Source: Isoetes taiwanensis
Taxonomy: Eukaryota; Streptophyta; Lycopodiopsida; Isoetales; Isoetaceae
Assembly (NCBI GenBank): GCA_021234155.1
Contig: JAJEKV010000020.1
Span: forward strand, 2,157,275-2,221,274
DNA: 64,000 bases
Direction of reading: 5' to 3'
A model generated the notes under the pieces. It was given only the letters and a program-made list of their open reading frames with translations. It did not search any database and was not told where the DNA came from. Shown piece after piece: positions 37,500 through 64,000 of this stretch (position 1 is the stretch's first letter; each line of letters opens with the position of its first letter). Made by a program: the position numbers and the translations under genes.

Positions 37500-38213
37500 A
37501 AACCCGAGGGTAATGATCAAAATGGAGGTAGATGTAGAATGTTACTCCGCCAAAGAGGGCACACCATCCAATGCGCATGGGGAAGCATAGCACCGGGTCA
37601 TGCCTAGCATACGCCCGCCCGCACTAATCACCTATTACAATAGGTGAAAGACAAGTCCCCAGGGACCTCAACCAAGGCCAAATCCTGCAACAAACGAGAC
37701 CACTGGTCCCTCTCAAATCCCTGCACAAGCTGGGTGCCAGAACCAGAGCGATCTTCTACTCGCTCTACCATATTGAAATCCCCTAACAACAACCAAGCAA
37801 CCTGCAACCCACCAAGGGCTCGCAACTTATTCCGGACTGTGGCCCACAAAGCACCCCGCTGAGAAGGCTGATTAGGGGCATAAACATTAACAATCCCCCA
37901 CTCTTGCCCGCCCTCCAACCACTTAATTATTGCCCACCGACCAAACCCATGCTGCTGCAGAGTATGTGACCTGCACATCCATCTTCCAAGCAATAAGAGT
38001 ACCCCCACTAGTCCGCCCAGAAGAAGAAGCAATAAAGCCAAACTGCCTACCAACCATATTCATGAGCCTGGACATATCACCCCTGTGACACTTATGCTCC
38101 TGAATGCAAACAATATCAGGACGCAACTGCCGAAGTGCCAAAGAAACACGGGCCCTCTTACTACTAGAGGACCGCACCCCCCGCACATTCCAACTGAGGA
38201 TCGACCTATTCAT
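37500..38213 (-). pseudogene. LINE AP-endonuclease domain, copy A
   Basis: The start ATG at 38213 gives RSILSWNVRGVRSSSSKRAR and DIVCIQEHKCH, the N-terminal Asn and Glu active-site regions of APE-type endonucleases. 38053-37628 continues in another frame with WAIIKWLEGGQEWGIVNVYAPN and LLLGDFNMV. One or more frameshifts. Confidence 0.85.
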
Positions 38214-41150
38214 CCCAGAGGAGAAGTGTCCAGCCCCACATGCCTACCCACCAGGCCATCAGCCCACTCCACAGAGTCAGCATCTAGAGCCAGAGGATTA
38301 ATCACAGCAATGTGACCCACAGCCGCTCGTGATATTCCACTTCCAACACGTGTTGGAAGTCCCCCAGGCACCTCCACAAAGTCATGGGCCACAACTCGTG
38401 ATATTCCACTTCCAACACGTGTTGGAAGTCCCCCAGGCACCTCCATAGAGTCATGGGCCACACTAGTCTCTACCTCCAACCGGGTTGCTCCAGCCACCTC
38501 ATGCTCAGCACATAATTGCTCTTTGGGACATCCTCGCCAGGATCACTAGCCCCTCGCCACAACCCCCGTCCCTCGGATCTAGCCACAACCAAATCATCCG
38601 AGCCCTCCCCGAGCCACCACGTCCCCTAGCCCCGCCATCAAAGGGGCCCGGCCCGGCAAGCACTTTGCCCGGCCTCGTCCCACACCACCTCTCTCAACCA
38701 CACCACCTCGTCCAACTCCACTCCATCGCACCACGGAGTCCTCGCTGTGACCTCGAACCGAGGAATCCCGGGCCCCTGCATCAACACCTGCAACCCCTAC
38801 CACATCACAAGCACCCGGCAGGACTAGCGGGATCATCAACGGGGTCAAATGGTAGCACAATAGATGGAAACATCCGCCCGAATCTCGAGCCATTCAAAAG
38901 CTTCAATCGGAAAAGAAAATGCCGGGGACCACTACGCCTTTGGAAGAGAAGTGGGCACAGTCGCAGCAAAAGCGAGAGCAACCACGGATCTTGGGGACTG
39001 CACAATAGAATGAGCCAAATATACACCCGGCCATTGGCCATAGAAACCAAGAAATCGGGCACCATCGGTCGAGGAAGATCCTGAATCTGAACCAACACGG
39101 GATTTTAACCATTTGTCAAAAGAACCGGTGGACATTCTTTGGAATATAATACTGATACAACACATATGAATCACCTAACGTATCCACCCCCCGACTAACC
39201 AATTGCCGCACAGAAGACTCAGCCTCAAACATGATTAGGAAGAAATTATTTGGTAAGAATTTCAGGGACTGATACCTGGGCAAACCAATCCGCCTCAGAT
39301 GTCCAGCAAGCCAAGAGCGATCAGAAATGAGGGTAATGATCAGAAATGGAGGTAGACAGAATGTTACTCCGGCGCAAAGAGGGCACACCATCCAATGCGC
39401 ATGGGGAAGCATAGCACCGGTCATGCCTAGCATACGCCCGGCCCGCACCAATCTGCCTATTACAATAGGTGAAAGACAAGTCCCCAGGGACCTCAACCAA
39501 GGCCAAATCCTGCAACAAACGAGACCACTGGTCCCTCTCAAATCCCTGCACAAGCTGGGTGCCAGAACCAGAGCGATCTTCTACTCGCTCTACCATATTG
39601 AAATCCCCTAACAACAACCAAGCAACCCGCAACCCACCAAGGGCTGCAGAACTTATTCCTGGATCAGGCCCACAAAGCACCCCTTGACCGAGAAGGCTGA
39701 TTAGGGGCATAAACATTAACAATCCCCCACTCTTGCCCGCCCTCCAACCACTTAATTATTGCCCACCGACCAAACCTCATCACTTCAGCAGAGTATGTGA
39801 CCGCACATCCATCTTCCAAGCAATAAGAGTACCCCCCACTAGTCCGCCCGGAAGAAGAAGCAATAAAGCCAAACCGCCTACCAACCATATTCATGAGCCT
39901 GACATATCACCCCTCAGTGACACTTATGCTCCCCGAATGCAAACAATATCGACGAATCTGCCGGTGCCAAAAGAAACACGGGCCCTCTTACTACTAGAGG
40001 ACCGCACCCCGCACATTCCAACCGAGGATCGACCTATTCATCCCGGAGGAGAAGTGTCCAGCCCCACATGCCTACCCACCGTGCCATCAGCCCACTCCAA
40101 TCGAAGTCGAAGATCTAGAGCCGGAGGATTAATCACGCGGCAATGTGACCCACGGCCGCTCTCGTGATATTCCACTTCCAACACGTGTTGGAAGTCCCCT
40201 GTGCACCTCCACAAAGTCATGGGCCACAACTTCGTGATATTCCACTTCCAACACGTGTTGGAAGTCCCCTGTGCACCTCCATAGAGTCATGGGCCACACT
40301 AGTCTCTACCTCCAACCGGGTTGCTCCAGCCACCTCATGCTCAAGACATACCGCTCTTCGGGACATCCTCGGCCAGGGATCACCAGCCCCTCGCCACAAC
40401 CCCGTCCCCTCGATCTAGCCACAACCAAATCATCCGAGCCCTCCCCGAGCCACCACGCCCCTAGCCCCGCCATCAAAGGGCGGCCAGCGAGAAGCTTCGC
40501 CCCGCCTCGTCCCCACACCACCTCTCCCAACCACACCACCTCGCCCAACTCCACTCCACCGCACCACGGAGTCCTTCACCTGGACCTCCTCGAACCGAGG
40601 AATCCCGGGCCTCGCATCAACACCTCGCAACCCCTACCACATCACAAGCACCAGCCAGGACTAGCGGGATCATCACCGGGTCAAATGGTAGCACAATAGA
40701 TGGAAACATCCGCCGAATCTCAGAGCCATTCAAAAGCTTCAATCGGAAAAGAAAATGCCAGGGACCACTACGCACTGGAAGAGAAGTGGGCACAGGCTGC
40801 AAAGCAGGCAGAGCAACACAGATCTTGGGGACCTGCACAATAGAATGAGCCAAATATACACCCAGGCCATTGGCCATAGAAACCAAGAAATCGAGGGCAC
40901 CATCGGTCGAGGAAGATCCGAATCTGGAACCAACACGGATTTTAACCATTTGTCAAAGAACCGGTGGACATTGCTGGAATATAATACTGATACAACACAT
41001 ATGAATCACCTAACGTATCCACCCCCCGACTAACCAATTGCCGCACAGAAGACTCAGCCTCAAACATGATTAGGAAGAAATTATTTGGTAAGAATTTCGA
41101 GGATCTGACACTGGCAAACCAATCCGCCTCGGATGTCCAAAGAAGCCAAG
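37517..41150 (-). repeat. 1.8-kb tandem duplication within the LINE
   Basis: 37517-39300 and 39347-41150 are the same segment (endonuclease plus ORF1) in the same orientation, offset about 1.83 kb. Example landmarks: GAGGGCACACCATCCAATGC at about 37556 and 39381; AAGAAATTATTTGGTAAGAA at about 39240 and 41075. Differences are mostly 1-4-base indels or swaps, many at CAG/CTG or CCGG sites. Confidence 0.9.
38329..38466. repeat. Two-unit minisatellite with a CACGTG palindrome (repeated at 40163-40300)
   Basis: A 68-70-bp unit occurs twice here and twice in the second LINE copy. Each holds the perfect palindrome CTTCCAACACGTGTTGGAAG: 38340-38359, 38409-38428, 40175-40194, 40245-40264. Confidence 0.88.
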
Positions 41151-41934
41151 AGCTAAACCTCCTCGTGTCCAATATGTAACCCGTGAAATAGCCCAACACC
41201 GCAAATGAAACTAGATTCTCAATGGTCCGAACATGCCCGGTATGATCAATATCTATCCATGGAGTCTCCGGAAGAGTCACGCAAGTCAACAGAGTGATGA
41301 TCCTCCACAAACTTCGAGCTTCTTGAACACGGGCGGTTCTACACTCCCGAGCCTTGCGCTTAATCCAATCTGAAAACCCCTACCGAAAGTGATGCGAAAG
41401 CAACAAGTGTCATTGCTCCGCCAAAGTAGGCGCCGACAGATTTGGGGCTGCCACCGCACCCCGAGAGGTATCCGAGAGGCACCCCAGGAGACACATCAGC
41501 TACATGCACCCTAGAAGAGGGCATCACCAGCAAGTGATTCCTTCCCAAGCACAGGCGAGGGGCATCACAGATGCAGCCTTTCCAAGGGGCATGCTTGATG
41601 GAATCAAGACCGGAGTCTCCAAAACACAATCTACTTGGGTCTCAGAATTATATTGAGAGGAAGAGCAATCCACATACCTCTCAACCGAAGGGGATTCCAA
41701 GAGCTCCCTCATCTCTGCCACCAATTGCATGCCACTTCCTACAGCCCGCGCCTCTTCATGCATGCTGAGACCCACGCCCTTCCCCTTTACTGGAGGATTC
41801 TTTCTCCTCGCCATCTCCCTTGGCTTCAGCCCCAAGCCATGAGGCTCAATCGAGCCCCCATCAGCCTGTCTGGCAGGAGCCATGTCATCCGGACCAGTCC
41901 GCAAATCAGCTGTTTGCAGCAACCAGCATTGAGA

Positions 41935-44105
41935 TGGATTCTTGGGGTGAGCAAGTCTTCATTTTACAGATACTGGGAGCAGGTTAGAAAAGGGCACAGT
42001 TTGTTCCAACATGGTAATGCACTCACTTTGAAACCTAGAGCAAATACTCTCAAGGCCATTGCAGTCTTCGAGAGCTTTGTGAGATACATGTCTCAATCTA
42101 TGCCCCACAAGTCGAAGGTGAACGAGCACGGTGTGCGAGTGGTGCAAAGAGTGTTGCCACAACACTATATCCAAAAGGAGTGCCTTAAGGAGGTCAACTC
42201 CATCCTAGAAACTATTGGAGGTAGGCCTCTTTCTCAATCACATTTCAGCAAGTTATGGAGCACTCACTTCTCAGACGTGAGTGTCCTACAACACATGCCA
42301 TTCTCAAAGTGCAACACTTGCATTCAACTCAAGGATACACTTGCATCAACTGCAATAGAGAAAGAAAGAATGGCAATTAGGGAGCAATTTGCAGATCACC
42401 AAAGGGACCAAATATCATGTAGACAGTTGTATTGCAGTGGAGAACATTTTCTGAGATGCAACCGGACAAATTTTTGTGTATAATTCATGATAAGATGGAC
42501 CAACACAAGACTTTCTTGCCAAAGCTAGATCCTTTACCCAAGCGTTGTCAAAATGCTTTTCAGATGAAAGTAAGTCCGGTGTATTAACACATGGTCATGG
42601 AACCGGAACATATGGTCATTTTGTGCTTGATCTATGGAGAGATGATCCAAACTTCCATGTGAGCTCTATTTTCAAGTGCCCGAGAACACTAGAGAAAGGA
42701 TCGATAGAAGGGAGGAGGTATTCCCCTTCAAAGACCCATTTTTGAGGCTTTGATGGATGATCAACCGCTTTGTTACCAAAGGCGAGATAAAAAGCTCACA
42801 TCCAAGGTGTCTAGTGAATCAAGGAGGACTTGGGATGATTTCCCCTTACTTGAGAAATCAACTTGCGAGGAGCTATGTGTTCAGTTGGACAACCTGTTGG
42901 AAAGAAAACAAGAATAGATGGATGTTTGGGGCAATGTCATACTTGGACAAAGGCGGGGGAGTATTCAAAGTTGTGAAAGTGGGATTCATGATGGTTGGGC
43001 ATACACATGATGATATAGATGGATTCTTTGGAACTTTCTCCACCAAGCTCAAGAGAGAAAAACGTGACCACTCTCCACGAACTAATGGATGTGTTTGAGA
43101 GCTGCATTGACCCCAACCCAATGGCTTTCTTGATGGATGAGGTTGCAGATTGGAAATCATTTGTAGAAGGATACTTGCTAGATGGTAAGGACCAGGTTAT
43201 TGGGACACACAAAGCCACTTCAGTTCAAGTTTTGGGTTAGGGATGGAATACCAATCATGCAATATAAGTGGAGACCAGTGACAAGTTGTGGATGCCCAGT
43301 ACAAGGTATCGAGTTGTGGCAAAGGGTGTTCTGGCGGTGAAGTTCTCATTCCTAAAGGGCAGCCAAAACCACTACCTCCCTTCAAGACAGTCAAAGACTC
43401 TAGCCACCGGGTGAAGGGCATCAAGGATTACATAACACACCGGGATGATGTTCAAAATGGAAAGCACATCTCCACTCTTAAGAAAAATCAAATGGACTCC
43501 CTAATCAAGCAATCTTGGGAGAAAGTTGTGACATGCTTGGAAACCCGAACAGCCCATGTGGGAGGGAGCTAAGAGACGGGTTCTTGCCGTCAAAGATGGG
43601 AGGGTTCTCAAGGTGCAAGCACGTCTAAGAATGCTCACTTGGGTCCCAACAAGGGTTCCAAGTGGTTTGTGGGAAGTAAGGCCTCAAAGCCAAGTGGTTT
43701 GATCTTCCCGAGTGGGATCCCTTTGAGGACATCAAGGAAGGATACTTTGTGCTAGTAAGGCCTGATGATGAGGACTGTCCAATATGGTTAGGGGTGGCAC
43801 TCTCCTCGATGTAACCACCACTATGCCCGAAGGAGAGGAGTTGCGCCCGGATTCCAAATTCAATATTGGGAGCCTATTGGGAGACACAAGAAGGGCAACT
43901 TGAAGGAGCAATACACCGACTCTTGGGAGAAGAAGTGGAGGGCAAATCATGCTGACCATAAAGGAGGGGAATTGGTGGAGTGTGTGGTATGGTCATATCC
44001 AAGTTCTCACATTGCAAAGGACAACACACACAAGATCCCAAGAAGGGAGATGGACAAGGCCATGAGCAACCTCCATGCTATATCCCTGTATGAGGGTACA
44101 TAATA
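41935..44105 (+). pseudogene. Transposon-like gene (DUF7869-type), frameshifted
   Basis: A series of plus-strand frames forms one decayed protein. The first (41935-42483) has GVSKSSFYRYWEQV, a conserved GGRPLSQSHFSKLWSTHF and FSKCNTCIQLKD. Later pieces give LTHGHGTGTYGHFVLDLW (42600), QLDNCWKENKNRWMFG-like sequence (42885), VVKVGFMMVGHTHDDIDGFF (42970-43030) and LHELMDVFESCIDPNP. This layout resembles proteins with a DUF7869 domain, found in multicopy in bryophytes, algae and invertebrates and suspected to be transposases; I recall this rather than having searched it. At least four frameshifts. The 5' end is cut where the LINE abuts. Confidence 0.55.
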
Positions 44106-53259: not shown

Positions 53260-54640
53260 TGCCTAGGGACCGAAGCCCACTAACTAATCAAACAAGTCAT
53301 ACCAACATATTGTCTCAAAAAACAGCATTGGAAATTTCGGCCACATTATACAGCAGCAGGCTGCTCAAACAGATTGAAGAGTTGATGAAAATAACATTCC
53401 ACACAAATGTGCTGCAAACACGTGTCAAATTCACAGGCAGCAAAGCAATCATACCTGTCAAGCATCTCCATACTGCTGAAACACATTCAACACGACATTT
53501 AGAACAGAAACAAACCTATAATCTTGCCGAAATCAGAAACCGTTGTTTTATATTATTTCCACAATATAAAACCAGAATGAGTTCTCTCAAGCCCATACAC
53601 AAAAACAGAAACAACAACATGTAAACACATCAGTTCATAGTGGAGCCACATCCCCTGTTTCTAATGGCAAATTTTCTAGTCTAATCCTTCTCCATTTGTG
53701 ACAACTTCTCGGCAACAAACATGCATCTGATTCTCTGAAACGTGCAAAACAAAAATTTAGTTGCAATCATCTTAGATCTTTTCTGGAGGGAAAAAAAAAG
53801 CATTCAACAGTTCGGTTATTTTGTCAGTTTCGAATTGCTCCTGTAATAGGATAAAGAAGATTACAAACAGAAAATTATAATTTAGCTTATGGTAACTTCG
53901 ACACAAAGGATCGTTGCTGAAAAAGGTTAGTAATCTGTCAAATCACGCATCCTAATTTGTAAAAGGAAGCTCATTATACAACAAAACACATAAGTCGATC
54001 AAACGCAAAGAACTAAAAGAAACGTTTCATGATGCCTGATTGATATGCTTGCATGGATCATCGTCTGGAAGAGCCCGCAGTAATTCGTTATACGAAGCAT
54101 GGAATTCAAAGGCAAATAGAATAGATCAAGTTAGAAAAGCCTGTTGAAGAGCTTGTTGCCAGCCCGTTGAAAAGAGTGGTCGGAACCGCTGCCTGCCTCT
54201 TGCATAGAACCAACGAAGATGAAAGAAGCAAATCGACACTTATCTAGCCAGGAATAGCAGCATGCGCCATCTGTGGCCCGCCCATCTGAAGCGCAGCCCT
54301 CCCGACCACACAAATGCAGGAATCTAAACTCTAGATTCCCCTGTTTGGAATCTTGAGTGCCAGCATCAGCTTATACTGTATTTACATACGGATACAACAC
54401 CAAACCATGCAAAATCTTATGTTACAAAACTACGGTTTCTGATTTCGGCAAGATTATAGGCAGATATATGTAGCATTATAACAGGGGGTTTTTTTTGTGT
54501 TTTTATACTGTTTTCTCTAAGGTTTTCATATGATTTGGTGGCCATATTCATCCAGGTGTACTAAATAGTATTTCTAGAGTGCACCCTTTTGTAAGCCGTT
54601 GATTTTAGAAAAGGGGCCAAATCTGTGGTGAATATCCTCC
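53260..54640. other. Intergenic, nothing recognised
   Basis: Open frames at 53250-53624 (plus) and 54313-54131 (minus) lack motifs or support. Confidence 0.3.
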
Positions 54641-54643
54641 CAT

Positions 54644-54706
54644 TAGTTTTAGGGTTTTTTTTAGGGTTGTGTTTTAGGGTTTTTTTTTTAGGGTTGTGTT
54701 TTAGGT
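54644..54706. repeat. Telomere-like TTTAGGG cluster, degenerate
   Basis: Four TTTAGGG words lie in a T-rich stretch organised as two copies of a TTTTAGGG-T(n)-AGGGTTGTG unit. It is plant telomere sequence in interstitial, diverged form, or a simple T-rich repeat. Confidence 0.6.
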
Positions 54707-54959
54707 AATCTTCATCCACTAAGCGGCATCGTGCGAGTCTATTAGCACCTCTGTTGATGTTCAAGTGCAACGATTTTAGGTATCTCTACCATTCCCAAGA
54801 TCGGCAACATTTTTGATCGCCATAGCATTTGCATTTGGGTGGATTCAAGCCACGCAGCAAAAGCTTTGTGTATAGATTTCGGGCTTGAATCTTGAGCTTT
54901 GCAAAACCGAACTTGGCTACATACAAACGCAGTTTGTTTGCAAGCAGGGAGCATTAGTC

Positions 54960-55660
54960 GGGTTTAAGTACTCTTCAAGAGGACGTAAGGTTTCTTGCCC
55001 CGCTTCGAGAATTGACTTCTTTGTGAGTTTAGTATTTTTTCTACATGACTCCCTAGCCAAGGTTTATCTAGCAGCTAGCTTGGTATTGAGACTGTTCCTG
55101 TTATTGTTGGCCCATTCACGTATCTGTTATTTGCAAACCCAGCAAAGGGTGTGGCTAAAGGATTTGATCTTCTTTCTCCGCTTGACTCCTTCTTTGCCAG
55201 CCTATGGGTAATCTTAAAGTCGTTATCCTAGATAGTAGTTCTTATTGGTTCAAAGTTATTTAAGCCGGCCTTATATGTGCGTGAAAGTCATAGGTGAGCT
55301 GAAAGCACCGGTGCAAAATGGATTCAATTTGATGAACCTGCACTTGTGCTTCACCTTCAAGCGTCTAAATTGCAAGCCTTTGAGAAGGCTTATGGTTATC
55401 TTGCCACCGAACCGAGTGGTGTGAAGCTTTTGGTTGAGACATACTTTGTTTACATTCCTGGCCAAAACATACAAGTGAGTGATTATCTCGTGTAATTTGC
55501 AAATGCGTCTTTAAGCTTTCCAAATAATTTACCTCAACTCGTGCAATTCGGACGTTGGACCGGCTTGCAAAGTGTGGCTGCTATTGGAGTTGATTTGGTT
55601 AAATGGAACAAAGACATCCTTAATTCTTCTTTGGCCGCATCCGATGCTCAAATTCATTGA
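54960..55660 (+). pseudogene. Cobalamin-independent methionine synthase (MetE-type) fragment
   Basis: Pieces of plant methionine synthase, which methylates homocysteine with methyl-tetrahydrofolate. In order, in shifting frames: [18 protein letters not shown] and [14 protein letters not shown] (55079-55190), GELKAP (about 55292), WIQFDEPALVLHLQASKLQA and AYGYLATEPSGVKLLVETYF (55319-55450), and TGLQSVAAIGVDLVKWNKDI (about 55560-55620). This corresponds to the N-terminal half around the conserved QxDEP motif. Frameshifts, an early end and the absent zinc-binding C-terminal half mark a pseudogene. No introns are seen between segments, so a processed copy is possible but unproven. Confidence 0.78.
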
Positions 55661-56589
55661 ATTCACTTCCTTTTGCTTTTCCTCTCGCCTTTTTAATCGC
55701 TTTCTGCCTATTTTTCAACAGATGAAAAGGAGAAGAGAATGGGCACCTTGAGCAGAGGATTAATCTCTTGTTGCTTTGAACCCTTAGGTCATACTTGAGC
55801 GAGTACACATTTACGGCTCAGCTACACAAAAGGTTCAGCATGTCCGCCCTAATTTGATGCAAAAGTTCTGATATGACTGTGATATCAACCATTCGGGGCA
55901 TAAAGCCGGGTTCGCTGTTCTTTAGGATGAAAAGTTGCTTTGCAAAATGCATCCAGCATTGACCGAGATATAAAGTTTGAGCTTTACTTTGTAGAGTACC
56001 CAGCTATCTAATACCATGCAATTAACCATTATTAAGTAAATCATTAAAATTGTCAAACAGACAGGACTCTTAGGGGTTTAATAGTAAATGCGGTCCTCTT
56101 TGGTAAGCTTGATTTATATCTAAGAGATATCCACTTGGTCTATAAACTGAGATAACCTAATAAGATAATCTATGACGCTATTACCTCTAGATAGGACATT
56201 CATTTTGTTTCTTCTATTTTCATTGCCCTAATAATTGTGTCTCGTGGGTAGTTGCTTGCTATGTTCATCGATCTCTTACATTCCCGAATCCCTTGTAAAT
56301 CATTCATTGAAAGACGTAACGTGCACTGCCGCCAGAAAACTCTTCATCGTCCATAACCTGTAGCAAATGTGCACATGCAGCACAAAGAGTAGAAAGAGTA
56401 GAATCATTGACACTGTTTCATTCTCAAGTCCATCAGGACCCTTTACCATTGATTCAATGGTCCATATTGAATACTTATCTTGCAGAGACCTAGAACCATG
56501 AGTACAATTTGCAATATTTAGGCCCATAAAGTTTATTTATGTTTGCTTTAGTTAGGGCCCGAAGGGCCCAAATTTTTTTTAATATAACA
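55661..56589. other. Intergenic, nothing recognised
   Basis: No supported coding or repeat feature other than short frames. Confidence 0.35.
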
Positions 56590-57036
56590 GTCAACACACA
56601 ACTACCATTAACATTATTGACACAAACCATTGCATTTAACACATTTAAATTAAAATCCCCCTTAAACCCCCTTTGGTTTGGGTGCATATTCACACGGGGG
56701 TTACGTGAGGGCAAATGAGCCCCAAAAATATATTTACAATACATGTATAAAATTAACACCACTAAGTACATTGTCTCAAACCTTATAGTATTTTGCAAAC
56801 CCTAATATATAGTATACAAAAACTTGTACATGCATACCCCACAAATGAGGATTGCTATGTACGGTCCAGATCTTGGAATAAAGGGCAAATATGCCCATCC
56901 GACAGCTCTCGTTGCCCGGAGTAACCCCCCGTGTGAATATGCACCCAAACCAAAGGGGGTTTAAGGGGGATTTTAATTTAAATGTGTTAAATGCAATGGT
57001 TTGTGTCAATAATGTTAATGGTAGTTGTGTGTTGAC
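56590..57036. repeat. Near-perfect 115-bp inverted repeat (foldback element)
   Basis: The left arm 56590-56704 and right arm 56921-57036 are reverse complements along their whole length except one extra C/G in a homopolymer. They begin GTCAACACACAACTACC. A 216-bp unique spacer separates them. No flanking target duplication is obvious. It could be a long-TIR MITE or a source of hairpin RNA. It ends about 350 bp upstream of the reverse transcriptase ORF. Confidence 0.95.
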
Positions 57037-57386
57037 TCAAATGTATTTCATTATTTGTACTTATTGAATACAGTTTAAATCTGCAGTTTTTCTGTTCATT
57101 TTTTACTTGCATACTCAGTCTAATTATCTCTTCTAGATTATACTCAACTCAATGGTCTCTAAGGCTTCCCTTTATAGGGTCAGATAAGTCCAGTAGTTTT
57201 TGGCTACTTGGATCCTTTGTCAAATTTTAGGATTTGTCTTAGGCTAGTCTATATTTAACCCGATTTCTGATCATTGGTCTTACCAATGTAAGCCTTAGAG
57301 ACCTTCCTGTTCCTGTGACTGTTTAATAATTTCTACATAGAATATTAAAAATTCTATTCCTTTATTCTAACTTTCTGATATTTTAG

Positions 57387-60300
57387 GAAGGAGCTGAGGT
57401 TAATATTGATCCTATTACTCTGAAAGTATGCAACCAGCACACAAATTATCAGCAGCAACCGCTCACTAACAGGCCAGGTTGGTATAATGAGCTTGGTAAC
57501 TTTGGATATGCAGCAGCTGGTATTACTGCTCCTAACAAGGCAGTACAAACTATGCTTGGATGCATTATGATTAAGGAATTGCACAAGATTTTCATCAGTA
57601 AAGAATGTGGCCTTGCTGAAGGAGATATTTCTGCCATACTTTTTCTTGGGTTTGATAGGATACTGAATCTAGTATGCAGCTTTAAATCCAAAGACTATGA
57701 GCAGTGCAAAGCCCTTATTGAGCAAGCCTATCTTAGCCTTCCTGCTGCTCATATCCTTGCTGATACAAATGATGTATTTGATCTTATGGCATTTATCAAA
57801 GGCCTTACTGTGTTGGAAGCCACAAATTCTCTGAAAATATCATATCCACCTAATGACTCTGAAGTTGTTACAGCTGACAAACCTGATAGTCCACCTCAGT
57901 TATTGGACAATTGTCTTTTTGACATAAACATGATTGCTGATCTAGAACAGGTCCAGGCAGCAGTAGCAGTGGATAATCAGCAGCCACAAACTGAAGAGGA
58001 CAAAATCAAGACTGCATTGCTCAGGTATAATATCAAGGAATTAAACCTTTTCAATTGTGGCCCTTTCCCTATCATGTCTAACAGAAATGTTGAGATACAT
58101 GGAGAGCAGTTCCAGCACACACTCTGGAACAGCAGAAACCTTGGTGTGATTGCTCCCATTGGTAAGGAATCTCTTATTATGCTGGCTAGATTACAGAAAG
58201 ATGAAGTGCAAAAGGCAGAAAGCAATGCATTGGCCTTCAACAAATCCTTCAAGAGAATTGAATGTAAGTTCCCTTTTAAGTTGGATTTCCTGGGTAGAAC
58301 TTGTGAACTGGGCAATGGACTCTTTGTTGGACAAAAGGGACACATGGCAAAAATTGAAGAAAAAAGAATTGACTTTTACTTGAAAAAGATTTGGCGAACA
58401 TATTGTCCGTTTGTGAAGTGCAACTGTGATAAAATGTCTGACAAAAAATGCCCTGATAATATCACATGGATAGATCATCTGTTGTGGCATATGCTCAACA
58501 ACCTAGAGAAGATTTGGCCTAATGATAATATATGCATGAGGTTTGCAAGATTCTCCTCTTTTTTGGCATCTGACCCTATGAAGACTGTTATTCTGGCCTA
58601 TATTGGATATTTATCCATTAGGGAGATTATGATTGCCATGACACACAGGTTTGCTGCTGACAAGAATTGTGACTTCAAGAGTGAATTTGGAAACTACAAG
58701 GTTGTCGACATCATTGAGAAAACAATCAAGCCAATCTCTTTTCTTTATACGCATCAGTTTGACAATGCTAGTTTCGGTTATCAGAGCAGCAAGAAAAGAT
58801 CCCAGTCCAGTAACACCATGGCCAGTGGAATACTTAGGCCACCCAAACTGAATAGGAATTCTGCTACTTCAGCCAGATCTGAAAGTTCCTCGGTTACTAA
58901 GATCACTGATTATACTAGGACTCGTTCTAATCAGACCTCAGGTTCTGGGGTATGATACAACAGTGCATAAAAGAAGGTAAATTATTTAAAATATATATGT
59001 TTAAACTTTAGTTCTTTGGGCCACAGTGCCCTTACTCTCTGAAAACTTGAAAGGGTTTATCCCAACTAGTATTTCACTCTAACTGAAATTTCTTTCTGCT
59101 ATGTGCAGAGTAGGAGGGAACTTACCATCAGAGCAGATGGTAGGTGGAGACTGCATACCAAAAAAGTCAAGCAAAAAAATAAATATGTCCACTTTACATA
59201 TTTCTCCAAAGTTATAGATAGAATCAAGTTCAGCAGTATTTTCAAGACTGTCTTATGTAGCCATTTTGGTAATATTGGCTATGATATTTGGGACTCCACC
59301 ATCTTTGGATGGAGATACTCAGACAACCTTAAAGACATGTTTTACAAGCCAAAAATGATATTTGCTGAGGATAATTTGTATACGTGCCCATGTTGCATCC
59401 CTGGGCTTAAGAAATATATTGATCCTTCCATTGGTCATATTAGGACTACTGATTTAAGTATTGTTGTGCATAATAAAACTTTGAAGCACTGGTTTACACT
59501 TGGGTTGAATCACATACCTGACCTACCCTTTACCCTGGAAAGATTCAAAACAGAAATGGAGGATACCATAGAACAATTCTTTCTGATACACAAGTCTGCC
59601 TTGGAAGAAATGGATAGTAAAGCTATTGAGGATTGTAAAGCTATGCTTAAAAAAGAGACTAAGTGGCAAGCTAAGGCTTTTATCAAGGATAACTCGAGAA
59701 TCATGAAGAAATTTCTTATCCATGATGAAAAAGTTGTTAAAAATATTGAGTGGATTGTCAATAATCTTTATACTGCGGGCATATGCATGCTACACCCTGC
59801 CATTTTTGGAACCTGCCAAAGTACCTGCACTAGGTACTTTTGGATTGGGTACTATTTTCTTGTTCTTTTGGTCAAAACTAATTCAAAAGTTGAATATAAA
59901 ATGTCAAACGCATATCAATGTTCAAGGTTAAGATAGAGACAATACTATTGGAGGTCAAAATGAATGCATTCAATTTAACATTTGTAGTTATTAAGATATT
60001 ATAAAAGTACCCAGTACCCAGTGTTGGGTACTTTTTTAGGTAGTTTTATGGTTCCTAAATGGTACTTTTTTTGATAGGGTGTAGCATGCTTATGCCCCTG
60101 CAGCAGTTGACAAAGCTGCAAATAACCCTGCTTTCATTTGCCCTGTTCACATTAGGGAGGCTGCTACTAAAAGACTTGAGAGTAATGACTTTGCTAAAAT
60201 GGACATGATACAGGAAAACCTTGTCAACAATATTCTGGCTGACTTACAAGGGATACTTGGTGATGGACACTACTCCAGCATTAACATGCCATATCTGTTG

Positions 60301-61500
60301 GGGATTTTTAAAGCACATAAGTTGGAATACAGATGGATTACAAATGCACATGATACGATTTTCTCCACAGCAGCCTCCATACTTGCATCAGGATTGAATC
60401 TCATCATTGATCTATGGCCTGATATATGTTGGGAGAAATGCAAAGCAGCAAACTTGTTCATGTCTAATAAGATTAGGGCGTCATGGATAGTCAACTCCAT
60501 ATATGATGTTGTTTGCAATTTACCTTCTAAGATTTCTGATGTGTTTACAGCGGATATCACAAAGTGCTATGAAAATATCCCATTGGATGGCGAGGATGGT
60601 ATATGCAATGTGTTGCAACAGATTATCAATATGGCATGGAAATTTAAGAAAAAAGAACATGCTGGTTTTGACATGTGGTACCATGTCAATAATAATGGGA
60701 CTGCGGCAGTAACATGGAAATGCAAGGTCCCTGATGGGAACTATTGGACTAGGCTTGACAAAGACACGTTTACAAGATTGAACATTTGGCTCTTGAATAA
60801 TTGTTATCTTGTTATGTATAATGGTATCTGGAAACAAATCAAGGGGATTCCAATGGGTTTCGCTGCAAGCCCTGGATGGTGCAATATATACTTAGCCTGG
60901 TTTGAGCTTAAGTTTATAATGAAACTAATTGCACAAGGCAGATTACAGGAAGCTTCCATGTTTAGTAACACTTTCAGATATATGGATGACATTTTGGGAA
61001 TTAATAACCCATACATCAGGAAATACCTCGGCATTGAAAAAGATATGGAAGAATTAAAGATATACAATCTGGAACATCTTGGCATTAAAGATGAAACAAT
61101 CTATGATGCTAGTGACAATACCATGGGAAGAAAAATTGATTTCCTAAATATTAGTATTGAAGTGTTTGCACCCCATTCAGGCATTTATGCGCTGTACAGA
61201 TTTGACAAGAGATGCAAATTACCTTTTAAGGTATCAAAGTACATCCATGCAAGCAGTTGCAGACCATATTTGATGGCATGTAATGTCATCATTTCTCAAT
61301 TACAGCCATTTCTGTATGCACACAATAATCCCATTCGGGCAGCTAATGACATACTGGACCTTATGAACACATTCATAGGCAAAGGGTTCAGAAAGAAAGA
61401 CATCTGGCACAAAGTTACTAAAGTTTTGCATGAGCAAACGTTTCCAGGGTTGAGATATGATATGGGCATCCTTGTCTTTGAACTTAACAAATACAAATAA
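57387..61500 (+). CDS. Large reverse-transcriptase protein, intron-containing, split by a MITE
   Basis: Segment 1 (57387-58949, 521 codons) starts after an acceptor-like TTTTAG and ends at a GTATGA donor; the intron 58950-59108 has a GCAG acceptor. Segment 2 (59109-59790) joins in phase, then a 293-bp MITE interrupts; segment 3 is 60085-61500, about 1,220 codons in all. Landmarks: CPFVKCNCDKM (Cys-rich), TCPCC, GHIRTTDLSIVVHN, AVDKAANNPAFIC, catalytic block A FTADITKCYENIP, block B GIPMGFAASPGWCNIYLAWFE, block C FRYMDDIL, then LYRFDKRCKLPF. All three catalytic Asp are present. This pattern matches an RT family I remember from invertebrate, algal and protist genomes; I cannot name its clade. 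No endonuclease domain was seen. Without the MITE the flanking frames differ by one base. The true 5' end is unknown; the first ATG in the frame is 57552. Confidence 0.8.
58950..59108 (+). other. Intron in the reverse transcriptase gene
   Basis: GTATGA donor at 58950 and TATGTGCAG acceptor ending 59108; 159 bp, phase 0 on both sides. The upstream frame would stop at TGA just past the donor, while splicing restores the frame into SRRELTIRADG. A pyrimidine-rich stretch precedes the acceptor. Confidence 0.7.
59791..60083. mobile_element. 293-bp MITE inside the reverse transcriptase frame
   Basis: Ends TACACCCT...AGGGTGTA are inverted; GCATGC flanks both sides (59785-59790, 60084-60089), a probable 6-bp target duplication whose palindromic form leaves the exact border uncertain. 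Internal GGTACTTTT / AAAGTACC words recur near both ends. No coding capacity. Confidence 0.8.
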
Positions 61501-61838
61501 GTCTACATGCATATTTTGGTTTCATTGAAAGAAGTTTTTTAAGGTCATGGTTATAAACCTGATCTATTGTCATATTGATACCACATCTGTTATATCCTTT
61601 GAGACTTATGATTTCAGAATCAATTTCTTAAGGAAAATACAAGTTAAAGTTTCTCAAAGATCAGATTATGAAAAATACAGCTGATAAGCATTATATATTC
61701 ATATTATGAAAACAGTATAAGATAAAGCCGATAGGTACATGATATTGTCATAAAGACAAATTTACATTACATAACTTTAACTCATACTAAAAAGGTGAGG
61801 ATCCATTTTTCCAAAACTAGCAGTAGTAGAACCCTGTT
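61501..61838. other. Convergent intergenic spacer
   Basis: Lies between the 3' ends of the RT gene (plus) and the B3 gene (minus); AT-rich, holding both presumed 3' UTRs. No clear poly-A signal pattern was assigned. Confidence 0.4.
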
Positions 61839-62689
61839 TCACCTAAGCTTGTGCAGCGCAGCACCTTTCAGTATCTTCATATCCCATTCAAGTTTATTCC
61901 CATTATAAGTAAACTCAAGAACATCTCCAAGGCTTAATCCAAACAGCTTCTTAAAACCATTCCAGCCATCTCCTAGGCAGTTTCTGCTCCTCTTTGCTGC
62001 CAACGAGCATTTTTTATTTTCAGGTCCAGTGATTACCACGGTGTATCCCCTAGGAGGACTGCGCCATTTGTTCTCATTCTCCAGTACCTAGACAAACGGA
62101 CAACAGAATAGTTAACAAATCTTGTATTAATTTAATTCTGAAAGATAAAATTATATGTATACCAGGCCTCTATTAATGTTCGCTCTGAGTAGAGTGACAC
62201 GAAATGGTTTACTTGATGGGGGATCATCCTCGCCAGAGGAATCCTCATCTGATGAATCAAGCTCGTTGTATACTGGAGGATCACGGGTATTATGCCGTTT
62301 TTTATGTGGCGGATTGTTGCTTGAATTTCCAAGCTGCCAGTTGCCAATAGGCTTTACACGATAATTACCATCACATATATTAGCTGTTAGGCGAGTTCCA
62401 TGGTCCGATATACTGCATAAGAGTGCAGTTCCTTCCACCATATTATTTCCTTGCAAAAAGGATTCCCAGCCCTCTGTGAAAAAAGTTCGCCCACCCACGG
62501 ATGCTATAAAAATCGAGTACTCCTTTCGGTTAGGACCAATGCCAACAATATACTGATCTTTGGCGAGCATGACTCCATCAGCTTCCTGTAAAATCCAGAT
62601 CATGTTAGTAACATCTAAAATACAGCAAATCAACAATGGCTTACCAGTAGCTGACCGAACTTCACGTCTACTAAAAATACTGTCGCCAT
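61839..62689 (-). CDS. B3-domain protein, REM-like, 3 exons
   Basis: Plant-specific DNA-binding family. Exons on the minus strand: 62689-62645, 62585-62163, 62087-61839; GT-AG introns, all phase 0, 238 residues. The first B3-like unit (about residues 5-80) has GGRTFFTEGWESFLQGNNMV and a GTALLCSI strand where GDxLxF is usual. A linker with an acidic run (SSDEDSSGEDD) and basic KKRHN follows. The second unit (about 150-238) has PFRVTLLRANI, GWNGFKKLFGLSLGDVLEF, the standard B3 core. Two B3 units with an acidic linker fit REM-type factors. The protein is shorter than most, and the first unit lacks the usual first strand, so an upstream exon may exist. Nuclear location and DNA binding are inferred from the family. 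Confidence 0.8.
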
Positions 62690-64000
62690 TGATAAGGATT
62701 GGAAGCTAATGCGGATTCAAAGTATAGAAGAATGGCTCCGACCGGGAAACTTCATGGACAAGTAATGCATATACAATAAGATATCATCTATTTATGATAC
62801 GACTACCTTAATTATAACATACGTATGGCCTATGGAATAGGACTACAGGATATCATGTCAAATCTATGGTAGGTCGGAATATACCTTTAGTATATTCCCT
62901 AGTCATTTCATATTGTTCTTCCAATACAATTGATAATTGGCACCATGATCACAACCAATTCCTCATGTCCATTCTTTAAGATAAGGTTTTCTTTATAAAT
63001 ACTCTCAGTTGGCAGGAGGGTCCCTTTGCTAGCAAAGGGATCCTCCAATCCTTTTTGCTAGAATATGGGACCTTATCTGCCTTCCGGTAGGAGGCAGGGA
63101 TATATATATAAAATCTTACTACTCTACTCTACTCACTAGCCTTAGATCCCTTTTGCTCTTAATTCTTAGTCTGGAATCTAAGTGTTCTTATTACAACCCA
63201 AGTTTTAATATTTGTCTATTGACATGTTGCATAAACCTTTAAGGGCAATAACCTCAAGGGTTGATGGTACCTAATTTAATAATAAGTTGATCCATATATA
63301 TGTGCTCATATAACTATCCAAATGTTAATAGTGGTCTATGGACATGTTACATAAATTTTTGAAAGCAATAACCTTAGGTATTGGTGGCACATAAACTATG
63401 AATAAATGGTTTTTATTTACTCAAGGAGATCAAAACAATGACTTACTCTATGGATTATATTTAACATTTTCTAAGGTTTAATAAACATGAAAAATATCTA
63501 CATTAAAGGATGAATGCACCAGAAGCATCATTGACTAAACCAAATTCAAGTCTTTCTTTTCTTAATCCTAGTATGGGAAGATAGGACCACAATACACTTG
63601 ATGGGAACCCATACAAAAAAAACCATTGGGCTTATAATTCATAAAATTGATACATGGAATATTCATGTATCCACGTTATAAGCTCGAACTCTATGGTATG
63701 AACCCTAATCCGACGGAGTGGCTTAACCCTAAAGATATGGCGTATGAACCGATTACATGGCATTTTTCGATCTATTTACAAATGGTTATATGTGTAATGT
63801 AATCATTTCGTTATAAAGGATGAGCTATCTTTGGCCGGATCATCACCACAAACGATATTGTACTAATCAAGGCCTAGATTTGATCGTAGCATCTTGTAAG
63901 ATGAAAATTAAGGCCTAATACATCGACTAATGGGCTGATTAAGGCATCTAACGGTTATACCAGCTATATAAGGATCTAATGCTTATCTACCGCTTGGAGT
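62690..64000. other. Upstream region of the B3 gene; repeats only
   Basis: A 32-bp palindrome-like hairpin (GGTCCCTTTGCTAGCAAAGGG core) lies at 63017-63048, a TATATATATA stretch at 63102-63111 followed by CTACT repeats, and a diverged tandem pair at about 63201-63294 and 63318-63408 (shared GACATGTT(G/A)CATAAA and GCAATAACCT). It could include an LTR-like relic. No gene seen. Confidence 0.45.

Follow-up and report, generated by a model that had tools for sequence, protein, structure and literature searches.

The window analysed here, a stretch of 64,000 nucleotides from the quillwort Isoetes taiwanensis (assembly GCA_021234155.1, contig JAJEKV010000020.1, positions 2,157,275 to 2,221,274 of the forward strand), contained towards its right end a 5'-truncated, defective member of a large retroelement family that encodes a reverse transcriptase (RT). 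Three open stretches were found on the plus strand between 57387 and 61500, namely 57387-58955 (522 aa, closed by TGA), 59070-59936, and 60085-61500 (471 aa). The RT blocks A (ADITKCYENIP), B (GIPMGFAASP) and C (YMDD), which an earlier sequence-only reading of this DNA had pointed out, were all carried by 60085-61500. The second and third stretches form one RT exon, interrupted by a 321-bp miniature inverted-repeat transposable element (MITE) at 59777-60097 that was absent from other copies read, such as L007 and L009.

The surviving element begins at 57035; left of this position the window copy had no match in any other copy read, and a MITE-like inverted repeat adjoins (56589-57037; arms 56589-56714 and 56912-57037, 126 bp, 97% complementary). 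The 5' region of the copy, exon 1 included, is missing. The 3' part of intron 1 (57035-57386, plus strand; its acceptor in other copies is AG/GAAGG or a close variant, the slash marking the exon boundary) contained the internal site TAGTCTATA at 57245-57253, and at the homologous or nearly the same spot the downstream partial unit of several copies passes into (TA)n. It is followed on the plus strand by exon 2 (57387-58955), which encodes a Gag-like protein (522 aa) containing a conserved Cys cluster, and ends in TGA at 58953-58955, and by probable intron 2 (58977-59108), with a donor-like AAG/GTAA past the exon-2 stop and a phase-0 acceptor CAG. The first part of exon 3 (59109-59776, plus strand) encodes the N-terminal part of the RT protein with FYKPK, CPCxIP and GHIRTTDL blocks, and the second part (60098-61500, plus strand) encodes the RT core and C-terminal part with KAHK, ADITKCYENIP, GIPMGFAASP and YMDD. 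The MITE between them is flanked by the target duplication CTGC (59773-59776 and 60098-60101) and breaks the frame; its ends read GGGCATA..GCATGCTACACCCT, and similar letters were present in L073.

Downstream of the RT exon, an antisense gene for two B3-type DNA-binding domains was located on the minus strand at 61839-62705 (61842-62087 plus stop, and an exon within 62151-62705). The conserved structured 3' tail occupied 63007-63099 on the plus strand (GGCAGGAGGGTCCC..CTAG..GGGATCCTCC .. CTGCCTTCCGG..GGAGGCAGGG) and was joined by an (AT)5 junction (63100-63109, plus strand), a possible TATA box of the next unit, to the start of a downstream partial unit, or pseudo-LTR (long terminal repeat), at 63100-64000 on the plus strand, which runs to 65465 outside the window (L053). 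The element is larger than the 57387-61500 first proposed for it, since it extends through the tail and the (AT)5 into this partial unit. The partial unit (63100-65465) terminates as TAGTC(TA)7; at the homologous spot the first unit reads TAGTCTATA and intron 1 then carries on. The first 223 bp of surviving intron 1 (57035-57257) were 99.6% identical to the end of the partial unit. Terminal repeats had been suggested at about 56.6-61.6 kb; these bounds were replaced by a direct repeat of the family, about 2.4-3.0 kb long and bounded by (TA)n, whose 3' copy in the window starts at 63100. Nowhere in the 64-kb window did a (TA) run reach 12 bp.

The Isoetes taiwanensis genome searched contained 1,658,258,908 bases in 1,110 contigs. 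The RT query matched at least 90 genomic places (the best 90 of about 4,078 rough candidates) at 59-100% identity, and the matched part was stop-free in 81 of these best 90 copies. A host-like single-copy gene, one of the two possibilities raised at the outset, is refuted by this count. Thirty copies were cut out (10 long loci and 20 short ones) and 26 entered the RT alignment; L008, L013, L016 and L024 were left out because their open frame stops short of the N-terminal block. The ratio of nonsynonymous to synonymous substitution rates (dN/dS) of the RT exon was determined for 16 copies and 120 pairs, with values for the 12 pairs of lowest dS. Two of these pairs had a dS below 1, with ratios of 0.12 and 0.13, and the ten that follow gave 0.06-0.09. 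For the Gag-like exon, compared in 12 copies and 66 pairs, the ratio was 0.05-0.07 for the three closest pairs and 0.14-0.17 for the three after them; dS exceeded 1 in all six and was thus saturated. Both proteins are under low dN/dS, and the family is common and still conserved. No relatives of the RT were found in IMG/VR or in the prokaryote genome collections scanned, a Naiad-type motif gave 0 matches, and among the papers listed none described the family by title or abstract opening.

The coding part of the family consists of a short leader exon, a Gag-like exon of about 500 aa with its own stop, and an RT exon of about 690 aa without a usable start Met. All 26 of the aligned copies have a phase-0 CAG immediately before the RT exon, though the first codons vary in number. 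Outside the alignment, this acceptor was kept in L008 and lost in L013 and L016, so that 27 of the 29 copies looked at retain it. The second possibility raised at the outset, an element of a class that can retain introns, like the Penelope-like elements, is supported by the copy number and by this shared acceptor. No conserved Met was found before alignment column 150 of the RT exon, which itself lies past strongly conserved blocks. The Gag-like exon begins, likewise in phase 0, after AG/GAAGG or a close variant, and its own stop was present in 13 of 13 rows, 20-55 codons past the start of RPPK. The Cys-rich part described by the sequence-only reading corresponds to the conserved Cys cluster of this exon, whose predicted model was poor (predicted local distance difference test, pLDDT, 51.5) and had no PDB match. 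Past the stop of the Gag-like exon, a donor-like AGGTAA was found in 7 of 11 rows (the window and L007-L012) and AGGTA in 2 more.

The leader exon (105-113 aa, MAGRPEGSQNKGQTR..PLNQ) lies upstream of the Gag-like exon. Its start is similar to the AT-hook wording GRPxGSxNK, and a Pfam scan of this exon returned weak HeH and SAP matches alone, below the cut-off. Of 11 leader instances, 7 ended as AATCAG/GT in phase 0; these came from 5 elements (L018 and L020 represent second units of L012 and L010, respectively). The other 4 were frame-shifted or cut. The count is a description and not a test because the script sought this donor type. The fraction of T was 0.40-0.46 in introns vs 0.21-0.32 in exons in the two copies measured, with 0.46 in intron 2 of L012. 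Since the leader donor and both acceptors are all in phase 0 and the RT exon has no start of its own, the sequence suggests that one leader is alternatively spliced either to the Gag-like exon or to the RT exon, giving two proteins. The intron formerly placed at 58950-59108 is retained as a T-rich intron with a phase-0 acceptor CAG at 59108, and its donor at 58950 was dropped, being not conserved. The continuous protein of about 1,200 residues proposed along with it does not hold for this copy, as the MITE breaks the RT exon and the upstream exon closes at its own stop.

Fifteen unit ends were aligned and had about 95 nt in common, with a mean column identity of 80% (rows L058-L060 were slightly misregistered by eye). 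In 14 of the 15, the tail was followed by at least TATATA. The 32-mer core of the tail occurred at 183 genomic places with up to 2 mismatches and at 0 in the backward control. Nine sense-strand folds from seven sources gave RNA folding z values of -3.3 to -4.1. Two alternative folds were obtained, a hairpin and a long-range fold. The hairpin fold had 2 double-change cells vs 1.1 in shuffled alignments (152 of 500 shuffles reached 2), and the long-range fold had 8 vs 3.3 (2 of 500), with slid versions reaching up to 9; covariation does not settle which fold holds.

Extension of loci L015, L012, L010 and L014 to 17.9 kb revealed, in the first three, direct repeats that begin in (TA)n, the second copy running out into a (TA)n microsatellite of greater length. 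The repeats measured 2,615 bp (99.2% identical), 6,886 bp (97.5% identical) and 2,542 bp (98.9% identical) for L015, L012 and L010, respectively. L014 carried on as further full units, its end lying beyond the sequence read. Out of 12 elements extended, 7 (L010, L015, the window, L058, L059, L061 and L062) had their downstream end in (TA)n at the same or nearly the same place of intron 1, and this included lineages with about 62% RT identity (L058 and L059; adjoining RT copies L033 and L026). L012 also ended in (TA)n, at another place, L063 and L064 showed no recognised repeat downstream, and L060 gave no clear end. Genome-wide, the pattern TTAGGCTAGTCTATA plus five A/T was found at 17 places, 8 of which continue as TATATATAT, i.e. 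(TA)n. Among the 100 tail matches listed there were 21 same-strand neighbouring pairs arranged head to tail, with a spacing of 6.7-9.4 kb in 20 and of 12.1 kb in one. Tandem or partial-tandem copies with pseudo-LTRs, as known from Penelope-like elements, were thus present in the family.

Pfam assigned RVT_1 as the sole credible family for the RT exon. The match was weak in the window (22.6 bits, under the cut-off of 29.6) and was seen in 26 of 26 RT members at E-values up to 1, the best being 1.4e-6. Foldseek with the AlphaFold model of the RT returned telomerase in all of the top 7 rows (best E-value 2.1e-3). VIA-align gave telomerase a Z-score of 10.5 (root-mean-square deviation 4.4, 234 aligned), LINE-1 8.0, R2 7.7, and group II 7.2. 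The modelled structure points to a telomerase-related RT, a kinship not apparent from sequence profiles. The quillwort has a canonical telomerase RT gene of its own, separate from the family (L054, Telomerase_RBD 1.1e-31). The family was distinguished from this host TERT gene, as the telomerase domain model matched two places alone, neither of them among the at least 90 RT copies.

The endonuclease found wanting by the sequence-only reading was not found here either: the Pfam scan, which covered the exon proteins and not all other frames of the unit, detected no endonuclease, integrase, RNase H, protease, movement or coat domain, and RVT_1 and chance matches alone were returned. No GIY-YIG domain was detected by Pfam in the exon proteins, and none of the 121 GIY-YIG places listed (from the best 150 of 263 candidates) was seen by eye within 15 kb of the best 90 RT places. 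Supply of a GIY-YIG nuclease from nearby was considered and rejected, since the two such places read hold no RT-like open reading frame (ORF) among those listed and no tail core. The genome has at least 121 GIY-YIG places, and the two read were L056 4337-4807 (156 aa) and L057 4117-4473 (118 aa). Attachment to telomeric repeats was not seen, the ends read sitting in (TA)n; no separate search for telomeric repeats was made.

Many copies contained, between the RT exon and the tail, the antisense, intron-bearing gene with two B3-type domains. The predicted spliced protein of L009 matched Pfam B3 at 1.8e-8, over the cut-off. Among the best 53 of 157 B3 places, 45 were oriented opposite to a listed tail at a distance of 0.3-1.5 kb, and no listed tail lay near any of these 53 on the same strand. 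L013-L015 had no match to the B3 region. More distant B3 relatives (about 34-57% identity) were repeated elsewhere in the genome.

These results are best explained by a retroelement of the Penelope/telomerase type that has no endonuclease, keeps its introns and resides in (TA)n microsatellites, the window holding a defective copy, and we place the probability of this reading at about 0.6. It draws on the unit order, the (TA)n at the ends read, the repeated internal end site, the conserved tail, the low dN/dS and the splice signals in the DNA. On the best reading, the family is an interstitial (TA)n counterpart of the rotifer Terminons and an unusual relative of Penelope.

A mechanism can be proposed tentatively, with the odds somewhat against it, in which broken (TA)n microsatellites serve the element as 'telomeres'. 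Transcription would start in the 5' part of the unit, where (TA)n is perhaps the TATA box. By alternative splicing, the leader with its AT-hook-like start would be attached to either the Gag-like or the RT exon, so that both proteins would be steered to AT-rich DNA. The template would be an unspliced RNA longer than one unit. A free (TA)n 3' end would arise from a break in a fragile TA microsatellite and not from an element-encoded nuclease, would pair either with UAUA of the intron-1 site or with the (UA)n adjoining the tail, and would be extended by the telomerase-like RT. The other end may be closed by annealing between (TA)n in the newly made DNA and the (TA)n left at the target. The outcome would be a unit plus a partial unit, or longer tandems, flanked by (TA)n, and since the same (TA)n would become the TATA box of the new copy, the landing site would also be its promoter.

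Several results weigh against the reading of a Penelope/telomerase-type element in (TA)n. Splicing, transcript ends and the RNA template are inferred from DNA, and the exon-3 acceptor was lost in L013 and L016. Membership in the Penelope group rests on the telomerase-like predicted fold together with the architecture. The RT model had a mean pLDDT of 63, and no Foldseek row fell under an E-value of 0.001. In VIA-align, telomerase led LINE-1 by 2.5 at best, single telomerase rows went down to Z 7.9, and an unrelated enzyme (1t6p) reached Z 8.2 on helices outside the RT core; Z-scores of 7-8 are common for models without a match. Searches of PDB sequences returned no telomerase or other RT, and hhalign against the quillwort TERT was weak (5.7% probability for the motif-B' match, and nothing useful for the other part). 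Most dS values were saturated, and the Gag-like exon had no pair with dS below 1. As for the ends, the tail of L060 was followed by TTTTATATCTG and not by (TA)n, and a listed tail (100 tails listed) lay 0.5-6 kb downstream of just 29 of the best 90 RT copies; the remaining RT copies may have diverged or different tails, or tails beyond those listed. No Rfam family, hammerhead included, reached the gathering threshold in 10 loci, and no hammerhead was found by Rfam in 54000-64000 of the window up to an E-value of 5, a search that a divergent one could escape. The 5' flank of L015 was found twice at 100% together with 6 partial matches, and none of these was a clean empty insertion site.

Other explanations differ in what they make of the same exons and repeats. 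The upstream exon and the RT exon could be spliced into one protein of about 1,200 aa, at least in the lineage of the window, through a phase-0 GT that 11 of 13 rows have between RPPK and the stop; in the window, L009, L012, L015 and L049 this GT lies at a similar place and belongs to GTTACT or GTCACT, and L047 has a perfect GTAAGT. We regard such a fusion as unlikely, because the GT position is not common to all rows, L050 and L051 have none, and the stop 20-55 codons past RPPK is kept in all 13. The family could also belong, as an ordinary member, to an endonuclease-less Penelope clade that already has a name (Coprina/Athena type) and be special by its host alone, a possibility that we hold to be real, if on balance doubtful. 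Endonuclease-less two-ORF Penelope-like elements in head-to-tail arrays have been described (PMC6431247) and telomere-associated ones have been named in Selaginella (PMC12477314), as far as the available excerpts of these papers go. The elements described there sit at telomeres, and Terminons have a 3' hammerhead, whereas the present family ends in (TA)n and no hammerhead was found in it; the excerpts mention neither alternative splicing of a leader nor an intronic end site.

It is improbable that the family is a pararetrovirus-like element whose circular, more-than-unit-length form was passively captured at (TA)n breaks. Tandem order and terminal redundancy would look alike in both cases, and the unit size of pararetroviruses is similar to that of the element. 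According to the available part of the report on endogenous florendoviruses, these also sit in (TA)n, which was explained by break repair with viral filler DNA (PMC4241990), so that (TA)n targeting alone does not prove priming. The exon proteins scanned nevertheless had no protease, RNase H, movement or coat domain in Pfam, the RT model was nearest to telomerase, and a recurrent 3' end at one place of intron 1 is unexpected from random capture. An LTR retrotransposon whose LTRs are long and bounded by TATA ends and whose RT is unusual, the purine-rich end of the tail being its polypurine tract, would accommodate the direct repeats of about 2.4-3.0 kb (98.9-99.2% alike in L010 and L015) and the presence of GGAGGCAGGGA immediately before the downstream repeat. 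We consider it very improbable, as the exon proteins scanned lacked integrase, RNase H and protease, the ends are other than TG..CA, the repeat includes a coding exon and ends inside an intron, full units form tandem arrays, and the 6.9-kb repeat of L012 ends elsewhere.

Other repeats were observed beside the element. The 3' flank of L015 is a high-copy repeat starting CAAGTGAGTGTACTATAAG (L017 268-600), which in all four of the other copies read also begins right after TATATA; it is perhaps another element using TA-rich sites. A second tandem family was found in L074 (G000:C834:344440-348240), L069, L070 and L073, with units about 3.4-4 kb apart and no ORF longer than 107 aa in the stretch read. 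Its units begin after TATATATA behind a hairpin-like end (TTATCCGTCCTAGAACGGATAA), the element copy L064 abuts the start of one of them, and this family is possibly a non-autonomous partner of the element. Elsewhere in the window, two direct copies of about 1.8 kb (91.7% identical) lay almost adjacent at 37506-41153, and 41599-42483 on the plus strand contained a 294-aa open frame of unknown kind with a Cys-containing C-terminal part.

The preferred reading, that of a Penelope/telomerase-type element living in (TA)n, bears on how endonuclease-less Penelope elements prime away from telomeres and keep introns. With dozens of open-frame RT copies, a sharp target, a structured tail and a recurrent internal end site, microsatellite priming by base pairing can be tested directly, and it would tie priming of the telomerase type to interstitial repeats. 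An end site inside an intron would give a reason for introns to stay. The family also presents a B3-type gene with introns that is carried antisense by a retroelement.

Compared with known systems, the family shares the best structural match of its RT core with telomerase RT and differs from it in being multi-copy with a mobile architecture. The Naiad and Chlamys clades of Penelope have similar motif wording around DK..NN, HK, YxDD and an FLD-like block, and they carry an N-terminal GIY-YIG, of which none was found in the present family. Published work on the remaining systems is compared here from the excerpts available. Insertion into (TA)n microsatellites is shared with florendoviruses (PMC4241990), from which the family differs in having no caulimovirus domain besides RT in the exon proteins scanned, and some DNA transposons target TA microsatellites as well (PMC4486113). 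In rotifers, Penelope elements are able to retain introns and to carry host genes that contain introns (PMC3846280). The anole Poseidon element PAc occurs as tandem copies bearing pseudo-LTRs, with a preference for AT-rich DNA and a reverse transcription that begins within the RNA (PMC11167929). The present family is like Penelope/Poseidon elements in its tandem and partial-tandem copies with pseudo-LTRs, AT-rich target, proposed internal start and kept introns. It differs from them in that no GIY-YIG and no hammerhead were found and in the length of the pseudo-LTR (2.4-3.0 kb vs about 0.2 kb in rotifer Penelope), and from PAc in its intronic end site with TATA homology to the target, as PAc starts without homology (PMC11167929).

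The Terminons of bdelloid rotifers form tandem arrays in which telomere-complementary repeats directly follow a 3'-terminal hammerhead fold (PMC6431247). To the extent that the available excerpts describe Terminons and Athena, the family has in common with them a telomerase-related RT, the lack of a Penelope-type endonuclease (in their two-ORF forms), head-to-tail arrays, captured host genes, and a 3'-terminal RNA fold directly followed by target-complementary repeats. It differs from them in its target, which is interstitial (TA)n vs telomeric repeats, in a fold that is not a hammerhead by Rfam, and in its extra partial unit ending in intron 1, its antisense B3 gene and its AT-hook-like leader exon.

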